Positions 21,599 to 24,864 of a stretch of DNA of 64,000 nucleotides are shown one piece after another. Position numbers and translations under genes: made by a program. How positions within the stretch are numbered: the stretch's first letter is position 1; each line of letters begins with the position of its first letter. The DNA comes from Oscillospiraceae bacterium (GTDB lineage: Bacteria > Bacillota > Clostridia > Oscillospirales > Ruminococcaceae): the NCBI GenBank assembly GCA_017518255.1, contig JAFWVK010000115.1, forward strand, positions 1 through 64,000. Direction: 5' to 3'. The notes under the pieces are model-generated. The model did not search any database. It was not told the DNA's origin and saw nothing but the letters and a program-made list of their open reading frames with translations.

Positions 21599-22498
21599 TC
21601 AGTGCTTGAGCTTCTTTACTTCCTCCGCCTTTTTGCTGCGGATATGCAGAAGCACAAACAGCCCGATCATCAGCAGACCGGCGGCAATTCCGCAAACTGC
21701 AAGCAGCGCTGCGGCATTTGTCATCGAATACAGGTATCCTGTCACCGCCGCAAAAACCTGATCGGTTTTGACGGAAAAGCGGTCAAACCAGCGCGTTTTC
21801 GTCAGCCAGACCGACGGCACCATCAAAAGCACCGATGCAATCAGCAGCGCGATACCGGACCAGTAAAAGCCGTGTCTGCCCTCCGCATGATTGGACATGA
21901 ACAGAAACAGCACGATCAGCAGCGTAATCAGTGCAGCACCGATTGCCAGAAAGCCTGACCATTTGAGGATACTGCGCGCCTTTTGCAGCGCGTGCGCATC
22001 GGCAAGCATCCGGAAACGGAACACATCACAGGCATCCAGAATCTGTTCCTTAGCCGCATTCAGGGAATCCTTGACTGCAAGCTCAAAGGATGCATCCTTC
22101 TCGATGCCGTTTTTATCGGCATAGGCAGTCAAAAACGCCCGCATATCCGTTTCCAGAACCGAGAAATCCGGTTTTGCAGCGTAATCGGCGCTTCTTCCGT
22201 TCAGGTATTCAAAGCCGCCGCGGACGGATGCCCGAATGATTGCATCGCAGTTTTCCTCAGTTATCGTTTTCTCATACACTGCGAGCGGAATTCCGGTTGT
22301 GTTTTCCTGATCGACAAAACGCTGCGTCAGGGTCACATGCACTTTCTGCGCAAGATTCTGCTCCTTTGCAATCCGCAGGGCTTTTTCCGTATCAAGCCCC
22401 TGAAAGCGCAGCAGCATCAGCGCGGCTGTTCCGAGGAGAGAGAAAATCAGCAAAACCGTCAGGAATACGCTGATTAAATAAATATGCGGCTTTTTCAT
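21599..22498 (-). CDS. Four-helix membrane protein of the sortase operon
   Basis: A 299-residue protein with one hydrophobic segment near the N terminus (about 6-30) and three more in the second half, ending in a Lys-rich tail (RSKKAEEVKKLKH). Between the first two segments is a roughly 130-residue extracytoplasmic domain. I do not recognise the family. The ATG at 22498 is chosen because a G-rich ribosome site lies upstream and the membrane segment follows at once. An alternative ATG at 22522 overlaps the sortase stop codon and would add MREGDRNI. It is the last gene of a four-gene operon, so it probably helps the sortase or the surface proteins. Confidence 0.7.
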   Translation of the reverse strand: MKKPHIYLISVFLTVLLIFSLLGTAALMLLRFQGLDTEKALRIAKEQNLAQKVHVTLTQRFVDQENTTGIPLAVYEKTITEENCDAIIRASVRGGFEYLNGRSADYAAKPDFSVLETDMRAFLTAYADKNGIEKDASFELAVKDSLNAAKEQILDACDVFRFRMLADAHALQKARSILKWSGFLAIGAALITLLIVLFLFMSNHAEGRHGFYWSGIALLIASVLLMVPSVWLTKTRWFDRFSVKTDQVFAAVTGYLYSMTNAAALLAVCGIAAGLLMIGLFVLLHIRSKKAEEVKKLKH

Positions 22499-22518
22499 GA
22501 TATTCCGATCCCCCTCCC

Positions 22519-23199
22519 TCATTCTTCGGCAGGCAGGTCAAACTGCTTTTTCACCGGGACACAGCGCACGCCGACACGGATATCCGAGCTGCCGAGAACC
22601 TGCGGCTGACAGGTATACAGCGTCAGGATTTCCTCCTCCGTAACAGCGACATACCGCTTGTCCGCCTGATCGAATGTGATGTTTTCCGTCACGCGGTAGG
22701 TAAAGCTGCCGTAGGTTGTATAAAGCTGAATTTCATCGCCGGGCTTCAATTTGCTCAGGTCGGAGAAATAGGTATTGACATGTGCATCAATGACCGTATT
22801 TCCGCCCTCTCCGATGACGGCGGACTGTGTGGACTGACAGGCGCCGCGTGTGAGCAGCTCCGAGGAAACGCCGTAATACACACCGACATTCAGATTGATC
22901 GAGGGTGCAATCAGCATGGCGCACTGCTCACCGAATTTCGGGTAGACGATTTTTCCGGTTTCGTAACCGGTTTCACGGTTTTCGGTATTGATATCCTGCT
23001 CGCGGATCCGGAGACCTGCATTCACGGATTTGATTTTCAGATTATCCATAAAAACCAGATTCAGATATTTCTGAAGGCGGTGCGTCGGCGCCAGCACATA
23101 GCTCAGCACCAGAATGCCGCCCGTCAGCAGAAGCAGAAGCAGCGGCGTCAGCGTATATGTGATCCAGTATTTTTTCTTTTTGACTGTTTTTTCAGGCAT
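22519..23199 (-). CDS. Sortase
   Basis: A membrane-anchored transpeptidase that would link surface proteins to the cell wall or to each other. The 226-residue protein has an N-terminal membrane anchor (about 12-37). The sortase fold carries the catalytic His140 (IDAHVNT), the TLxTC motif TLYTC (193-197) and Arg208 or Arg212 (IRVGVR). The form resembles class C/D enzymes more than class B. The gene overlaps the upstream paralog by 8 bp. The two proteins encoded upstream are the obvious candidate substrates, although neither has a classical LPxTG signal. Confidence 0.88.
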   Translation of the reverse strand: MPEKTVKKKKYWITYTLTPLLLLLLTGGILVLSYVLAPTHRLQKYLNLVFMDNLKIKSVNAGLRIREQDINTENRETGYETGKIVYPKFGEQCAMLIAPSINLNVGVYYGVSSELLTRGACQSTQSAVIGEGGNTVIDAHVNTYFSDLSKLKPGDEIQLYTTYGSFTYRVTENITFDQADKRYVAVTEEEILTLYTCQPQVLGSSDIRVGVRCVPVKKQFDLPAEE

Positions 23200-24013
23200 C
23201 CTCCCGATTCTCCTTTCCGGCTTTCTCTTTGCCTCCGGTCAGCGCAAGCAGCACAATGCCCGCTGCGGAAAGCAGAACGGCGGCTGCCGCTGCAAGCACT
23301 GCATATGTCAGATTCCAGCCTGTCGCATCAATGCTCAGACCGAGCGAGGTTTTATCAATCAAGTTTCCTTCGCGGTCATGCACCGTCACCTGAACGGTAT
23401 CCTTTCCGATATCGTCCACAGTCACATGCAGCCCGATTTCCCTTCCGAAATCCGTCATACCCTTTGCGATATCCGTCTTCTGACCGGAATCCAGCTGCTG
23501 ACAGATACTTTTGCGGTCTGCCGGCGAAAGCGTCGCAAGAAACGCCACGCGCTCCTCATAAGGGAGCTGCGCAATATACGCTTTCTTTTCCTCCAGTGTC
23601 ATTTCCGAAAAAGGCTTTTCCGGCTGCACGGACGGCTGAAATCCCGGCTGCTCCAAGCCGGAACCCGGTTCGGCAGGCAACGCGATTTCATAATAATCAA
23701 TGATATCCTGCGGGTCAATCAAAAACTCCTCCGCAATCACGGAAACGACATATTTTACGCCGTTTTCATGAATCAGCGTCACCCATTCCCCGTAGGTGCG
23801 GTAAGTGCCGCCCATTTCCATTCCGTTTTCGTCATGCACGGAGGTTTCATACTGCGCGCGCGCATCACAGATCATCGCTTCGGTCGTTCCGACATCGCGC
23901 ATCGCACGGAACACATCCTCAACCGTTGCAGTCTGCGCGCTGACTGCACTGCCGCCGAACAGCACAAGGGCAGATGCACAGAGCGCAGCCGCAAGCCTTG
24001 GAACGGTTCTCAT
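23192..24013 (-). CDS. Anchored surface protein, second paralog of the sortase operon
   Basis: A 273-residue exported protein with a signal peptide ending near SAVSA. An N-terminal domain (VEDVFRAMRDVGTTEAM) follows, then a Pro/Gln-rich linker and a second domain (FSEMTLEEKKAYIAQLP through HVTVDDIGKD). The C terminus has the form DATGWNLT, a hydrophobic span and a Lys-rich tail. That is the layout of a sorting signal but without LPxTG. It shares every one of these parts with the gene just upstream, so the pair arose by duplication. Its ATG overlaps the stop of that gene, with GGAGG just before it. The family is unknown to me. Confidence 0.72.
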   Translation of the reverse strand: MRTVPRLAAALCASALVLFGGSAVSAQTATVEDVFRAMRDVGTTEAMICDARAQYETSVHDENGMEMGGTYRTYGEWVTLIHENGVKYVVSVIAEEFLIDPQDIIDYYEIALPAEPGSGLEQPGFQPSVQPEKPFSEMTLEEKKAYIAQLPYEERVAFLATLSPADRKSICQQLDSGQKTDIAKGMTDFGREIGLHVTVDDIGKDTVQVTVHDREGNLIDKTSLGLSIDATGWNLTYAVLAAAAAVLLSAAGIVLLALTGGKEKAGKENREDA

Positions 24014-24864
24014 TCTTCCTCCTCCGGCAGCTTTCTGCCGCGCAGCGCCAGCCAGACCACACCGCCGACAGAGAGCAGCACGGCACCAGCGGAAAACAGA
24101 ACCGGCAGTGTCAGATTCCAGCCCGTTTCGTCCACGCCTCCGCCGATGGATGCGGCATCAATCAGCGTCCCGTCGGAATTGCGGACGGAATAATTGATGC
24201 CGTTGCCGCCGCCGATGTCATCGACGGTCACATGCATTCCAAGCTTTTCGCCCGCCTGAATAAAACCGTTCATGACATTTGCCTGCGCTGCGGGATCCAT
24301 CTGCTTGATGATGCTGTTTCGCTCGGCAGTTGAAAGCCCGGCGACAAATGCCGCACGCTCCCCCTCCGGAAGGCTTGCGACATACGCTTTCTTTTCATCC
24401 AGCGTCATTTTGGTGAAGGGACGGTTCGTCGTAACAGAGGGCTGTGTCGTTGTCACAACGGTAGTCGCGGTCGTTCCGGTTGTTTTGGAACCCTCCGGAT
24501 CGGCGGAGGTTGTCGCGGGAGCGGTCGCGGTTGCATAGCTTTCCTTCAGCTGCGCACCGGTCAGATCGAACTGCTTGGCGACCTCGTCCCAGATGTCGTC
24601 CTGATAAATATCAATCATATCCGCCCAGACGTCGTAGGTGTAGTAGGTGTTGTTGATGGTCATTCCGTCTGCATCGTGCGGCGTATTCTGAAACTGCGTT
24701 TTCGCATCCTGCACCATGGATTCCGGCATACCGATTCTGCGCATCGCGGCATAGACATCCTCCACGCTCTCTGCGGATGCGTGCAGTGCGCTGCCGGCTG
24801 CAAGCAGAACTGCCGCTCCGGCAGATGCGGCAAACACAGTCAGACGTTGAATTCTGTTTTTCAT
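24010..24864 (-). CDS. Anchored surface protein, first paralog of the sortase operon
   Basis: A 284-residue exported protein. The signal peptide ends near ALHASA. A domain starting VEDVYAAMRRIGMPESM is followed by a Thr/Ala-rich linker (about 115-150) that may be glycosylated. The second domain runs from FTKMTLDEKKAYVASLP to HVTVDDIGGG. The C terminus reads DETGWNLT, then a hydrophobic span and RGRK. It matches the next gene domain by domain. The ATG at 24864 (MKNRIQ) has AAAGGA eight bases upstream; the ATG at 24870 is too close to that site. It is the first gene of the operon and has its own promoter. No known family recognised. Confidence 0.72.
   Translation of the reverse strand: MKNRIQRLTVFAASAGAAVLLAAGSALHASAESVEDVYAAMRRIGMPESMVQDAKTQFQNTPHDADGMTINNTYYTYDVWADMIDIYQDDIWDEVAKQFDLTGAQLKESYATATAPATTSADPEGSKTTGTTATTVVTTTQPSVTTNRPFTKMTLDEKKAYVASLPEGERAAFVAGLSTAERNSIIKQMDPAAQANVMNGFIQAGEKLGMHVTVDDIGGGNGINYSVRNSDGTLIDAASIGGGVDETGWNLTLPVLFSAGAVLLSVGGVVWLALRGRKLPEEEE

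Follow-up and report, generated by a model that had tools for sequence, protein, structure and literature searches.

A sortase operon of Oscillospiraceae with an acidic, non-proline candidate sorting motif and an unnamed membrane partner

What does a sortase act on when the exported proteins encoded beside it lack the LPxTG motif? The question is raised by a locus on the minus strand (24864-21599) of a 64,000-nucleotide stretch of Oscillospiraceae DNA (the window), in which four overlapping genes follow one another in the order SP1 (24010..24864), SP2 (23192..24013), sortase (22519..23199) and MP (21599..22522). The overlaps amount to 4 bases (SP1/SP2), 8 bases (SP2/sortase) and 4 bases (sortase/MP), and both they and the open reading frames bear out the original prediction of two paralogous exported proteins, a sortase and a membrane protein. 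On the opposite strand, the locus is flanked by an aldo/keto-reductase-like gene and by an operon resembling that of a V-type ATPase, both named by sequence. We consider it highly probable that the four genes form a self-contained surface-display operon, whose sortase cuts and anchors SP1 and SP2 at a [VI]-[DE]-x-T-G motif; the operon, the motif, its co-evolution with the sortase and the spread from genus to class were computed here.

SP1 consists of a signal peptide, a helical domain, a Thr-rich linker and a second helical/beta part, followed by VDETG, a hydrophobic span and a basic tail. Its C-terminus (...GVDETGWNLTLPVLFSAGAVLLSVGGVVWLALRGRKLPEEEE) and that of its paralogue SP2 (...SIDATGWNLTYAVLAAAAAVLLSAAGIVLLALTGGKEKAG...) share the pattern [VI]D-x-TG-WNLT with a hydrophobic stretch and then basic residues behind it. 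A search of both proteins for LPxTG found none, the tags being VDETG in SP1 and IDATG in SP2, as had been predicted. A profile of the tail matches SP1 at 24022..24138 (minus strand, E 1.9e-16) and SP2 at 23219..23335 (minus strand, E 6.2e-14). In a set of 33 surface proteins, whose other members are 19-56% identical to SP1, the motif T and G and Met1 are the only invariant columns, well beyond what chance would give, and G215 is the sole one across 86 surface proteins. The earlier claim that DxTGWN is kept while its neighbours change holds for TG, whereas D varies, WN is a genus-level trait and WNLT is restricted to close relatives; the conserved signal is [VI]-[DE]-x-T-G. Among 111 core proteins, P4 is V or I (A in 4), P3 is D in 77, E in 27, A in 4 and S, Q or L in one each, departing from the Pro at P3 of class D substrates (LPxTA/LPQTG), and P2 is mostly D, E, P or A; in most core proteins I, W or Y follows TG. 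A hydrophobic span begins about 6 residues behind the motif in all 111, and K or R follows the span in 110, which is the architecture of a cell wall sorting signal (TG pentapeptide, hydrophobic span, basic C-terminal tail). The structural model of SP2 (mean pLDDT 86) places the motif in its only stretch below 50, a linker between the beta domain and the C-terminal helix, as would be expected of an accessible cut site. Searches of SP1 and SP2 against Pfam and NCBIfam returned chance-level matches only, and comparison of the surface-protein model with the PDB gave no match at E <= 0.001 (best E 1.5), a result that does not in itself establish a new fold. Two loci are irregular: at L118:3261-3980 the tag reads VDDVG, with the Thr lost, beside an Asp138-type sortase, and at L137:3170-3987 (R. 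flavefaciens FD-1) the surface gene is split into two open reading frames, by frameshift or assembly error, and the tag is VLDTG.

When genomes were searched for such sortases beside DxTG-tailed genes, as had been suggested, the operon recurred across the family, and nearly all of its surface proteins had the architecture of a sorting signal. Among 298 genomes from that family, a search recovered a clear orthologue group at 36-66% identity, and a scan of named genomes yielded 80 loci, some identical to those of the first search, mostly from rumen or gut Oscillospiraceae/Ruminococcus metagenome-assembled genomes and from R. flavefaciens genomes including FD-1. In the wider set a sortase was recognised at 129 loci, of which 111 are distinct; the order SP-sortase-MP is found at about 110 distinct Oscillospiraceae/Ruminococcus loci, R. 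flavefaciens included, as well as in more distant Clostridia. One surface gene is present at 88 of 108 core loci and two at the other 20, and MP adjoins the sortase at each of the 117 loci compared.

This strict linkage suggests that MP is a partner in presenting the substrate or the acceptor to the sortase. As anticipated, MP belongs to no named family, Pfam and NCBIfam returning chance-level matches only. Its model (mean pLDDT 95.6) comprises a transmembrane helix, an extracellular all-helical cap and three more transmembrane helices, and Foldseek ranks the lipoprotein transacylase Lit as its best PDB match, at probability 0.94 but E 0.23. A second structure-comparison program also put Lit first, at Z 12.2 with 189 of 216 residues covered, but unrelated helical-bundle proteins came close behind at 11.9, and hhalign of MP with Lit relatives aligned just 27 residues of one transmembrane helix, leaving homology unsupported. 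Lit needs catalytic His85 and His153 (PMC8275575), and no conserved His column occurs in the MP alignments. As modelled, MP would be Lit-like in fold only. In large genomes of another family (L280, L281, L282), genes for MP-like proteins of 430-530 residues occur singly or in tandem, accompanied by a VanZ-like gene and genes for small secreted proteins but with no adjacent sortase.

Order- and class-level searches with MP profiles uncovered the same three-gene module in other families of Clostridia, with the tags IKxTG, IAKTG, VNQTG and plain LPFTG. In view of these modules, the acidic tag seems to be derived, the module itself being older and class D-like. At L274:3492-4668 and L277:3533-4754, both from more distant Clostridia, SP, sortase and MP occur with canonical LPFTG, and Wzz-, kinase- and phosphatase-like genes follow the module of L274. 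A much broader reading would see a Clostridia-wide display system of surface protein, class D-like sortase and Lit-fold partner, in which specificity at P3 has arisen anew on many occasions (Pro, Lys, Ala, Asp, Glu). MP would then be an indispensable subunit that takes part in catalysis or delivers the acceptor, and SP would be joined not to the usual peptidoglycan peptide but to something else, for instance a precursor of exopolysaccharide; we regard this reading as rather unlikely.

Nor do we give much credence to the narrower proposal that the sortase moves SP onto an exopolysaccharide or its lipid carrier instead of peptidoglycan. Its appeal lies in 10 of 138 related loci, from several genera and families, which stand beside Wzz, BY-kinase, CpsB or sugar-transferase genes where, with about one Wzz gene per genome, we estimate that chance would supply about 0.5, and which hint at a role at a polysaccharide-coated surface. 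Most loci, the window included, lie away from such genes, and we know of no sortase whose acceptor is anything but a protein- or peptide-borne amine. At L040, L057, L066, L179, L183, L186, L187, L189 and L193, related sortase or MP operons adjoin genes for Wzz, a Tyr-rich BY-kinase, a CpsB-like phosphatase or a sugar transferase.

The window sortase matches Pfam PF04203 (E 1.5e-20), and its H140, C197 and R208, the catalytic residues of the C60 superfamily, are invariant among 33 homologues. It is nearest to class D, the best-scoring class model, yet reaches only 76.4 (class D) and 73.5 (SrtD) bits against NCBIfam cut-offs of 140 and 165; the class E score is 54.6 bits against a cut-off of 160, with a tag that differs from LAxTG, and the class C score also falls below its NCBIfam cut-off. 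The SrtD cut-off is passed by the sortase of L273, a distant relative of the module. That each sortase serves just one or two small paralogous substrates might suggest a polymerase that strings SP1 and SP2 together as a pilus-like fibre or cross-links one to the other, assisted in assembly by MP, but this is quite improbable given an enzyme nearer to class D than to class C, the absence from it of the class C lid signature DP[WFY], the single surface protein at most core loci and the lack of an identified lysine/pilin motif.

The operon appears to stand apart from canonical anchoring, since in the source genome the tail profile retrieves SP1 and SP2 only (the next match, at E 0.34, does not cover the motif) and another sortase adjoins a protein with a classical tag, an 854-residue surface protein ending in LPQTG (L198:5594-8690, contig C13). 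That genome encodes four sortases besides the one in the operon. In 15 relatives, the strong matches of the tail profile are likewise operon proteins.

Evidence that sortase and motif belong together comes from residue 138, two before the catalytic His and Asp in the window. A pattern first noticed in the initial 37 loci pairs this residue with P3 of the motif: Asp with Asp, Ser with Glu or Ala, and Ala or Gly with Ala, Pro or Lys. Among held-out distinct loci, 71 of 73 agree with the rule (Fisher P 1.8e-18, kinship ignored). On a tree built without column 138, all seven switches between Asp and non-Asp at 138 share branch and direction with a switch at motif P3, two motif switches (L144, L178) having no counterpart in the sortase; these counts rest on parsimony and one quick tree. 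None of 100,000 random branch-length-weighted placements equalled the observed coincidence, and among 548 column/residue traits Asp/non-Asp at 138 ranked first (Jaccard 0.78, agreement 98%), followed by Ser at the same residue (Jaccard 0.45). Held-out loci alone account for the switches of L086/L087/L090 and of L131; in L131, where the sortase has Ser138, the adjacent surface protein carries VEDTG and the distal one still IDDTG. The clear result is that for the Asp/non-Asp version: in a multi-state co-change scan, residue 138 came second of 205 columns, behind 111, and an independent-pairs sign test found three well-supported pairs, nearly always concordant but too few to reach 0.05. Asp138 occurs with IENTG in L144, and Gly138 with VDKTG in L178.

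Position 138 also lies where other sortases meet the motif. In SrtE1, Ala249, two before the catalytic His251, was modelled packing against P3 (PMC5148588); Ala118 of SrtA lines the Leu-Pro site (PMC3019223, PMC11100315); and by profile alignment the equivalents in class D structures are Ser in 2ln7 and Ala in 4d70. Together these place Asp138 where P3 is read, and with the coupling to P3 they make it very probable that the sortase is dedicated to the acidic [VI]-[DE]-x-T-G motif. A counterpoint is that an Asp can face another Asp only if it is protonated or aided by a cation or some third residue. Asp at both 111 and 184 occurs in 9 of 9 IKxTG relatives and in none of 85 acidic-motif sortases, which mostly have K at 181; judged from sequence, charge complementarity with the motif may explain this contrast, but it divides one old split, for which common ancestry is the alternative.

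The same coupling bears on two points of the original prediction. The first concerns conservation of DxTG among homologues: TG is kept, but D gives way to E, A or S, and in distant relatives to K or P, in step with the sortase. The second is the rival then offered, that SP1 and SP2 are plain membrane proteins. In its fuller form they would span the membrane once, TG would be structural and the sortase would act on other LPxTG proteins; the C-terminal span alone would hold them in the membrane and cleavage is a prediction from sequence, but this explanation is highly improbable, as it fails to explain the co-evolution of P3 with a sortase pocket residue and is opposed by the conservation of T-G above its drifting neighbours, by the position of the motif in the least confident model stretch between domain and transmembrane helix, and by the separate sortase with its LPQTG neighbour. 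A dedicated sortase with a new recognition motif is what operon recurrence, sorting-signal architecture and P3/138 co-evolution support.

We therefore return to the self-contained display operon, for which we propose the following mechanism. SP1 and SP2 would be exported through their signal peptides, with the hydrophobic span at the C-terminus keeping them in the membrane, where the adjacent membrane-bound sortase would read [VI]-[DE]-x-T-G, cut between Thr and Gly through Cys197 and join SP to a surface amino group, most likely on a wall precursor. We infer the cleavage, the acceptor and the role of MP, and a covalent link to the wall is assumed by analogy with other sortases. The S3 pocket, which normally receives Pro at P3, may have been rebuilt for an acidic residue through position 138, where Asp pairs with Asp and Ser with Glu, with probable help from the basic residues at 181/182 in the beta6/beta7 loop. 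MP would be the membrane partner on which the system depends, and would most likely bring substrate or acceptor to the sortase.

If so, searches for surface proteins based on LPxTG miss a protein class in dominant rumen and gut bacteria. The loci also provide a natural enzyme-substrate series with repeated matched switches at one residue, which makes sortase specificity directly testable and could lead to orthogonal sortases for protein labelling.

Of the known systems, class D sortases (B. anthracis SrtD/BaSrtC, 2ln7; C. perfringens SrtD, 4d70) give the best profile matches, and C. perfringens SrtD likewise shares an operon with its substrate, which is tagged LPQTGS (PMC4498605). The window sortase differs from them in scoring only about 75 bits, in reading Asp/Glu instead of Pro at P3, in Asp138 where they have Ser and Ala, and in its MP partner. 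Class E (S. coelicolor SrtE1, LAxTG) also departs from Pro at P3, but the residue there is Ala and not acidic, and the window sortase lies far below the class E cut-off. To our knowledge, no MP partner has been reported for class E sortases. Housekeeping anchoring of the scaffoldin ScaE in R. flavefaciens is a similar reaction in the same genus, but uses canonical LPXTG and is a system apart from SP-sortase-MP (PMC12484212). The modelled MP may resemble Lit (PF07314; 7b0o/7b0p) in its four transmembrane helices and extracellular cap, but has no conserved histidine dyad, profile-profile homology or Pfam match. Pro occupies P3 in about 90% of known sorting signals, and Ala there is highly unusual (PMC5148588); our literature search for motifs with an acidic residue or Lys at P3, including IKXTG and VDXTG, found no paper. 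Sortase anchoring itself is known; new in this operon are the tag, with an acidic residue in place of Pro at P3, and the membrane partner from an unnamed family.
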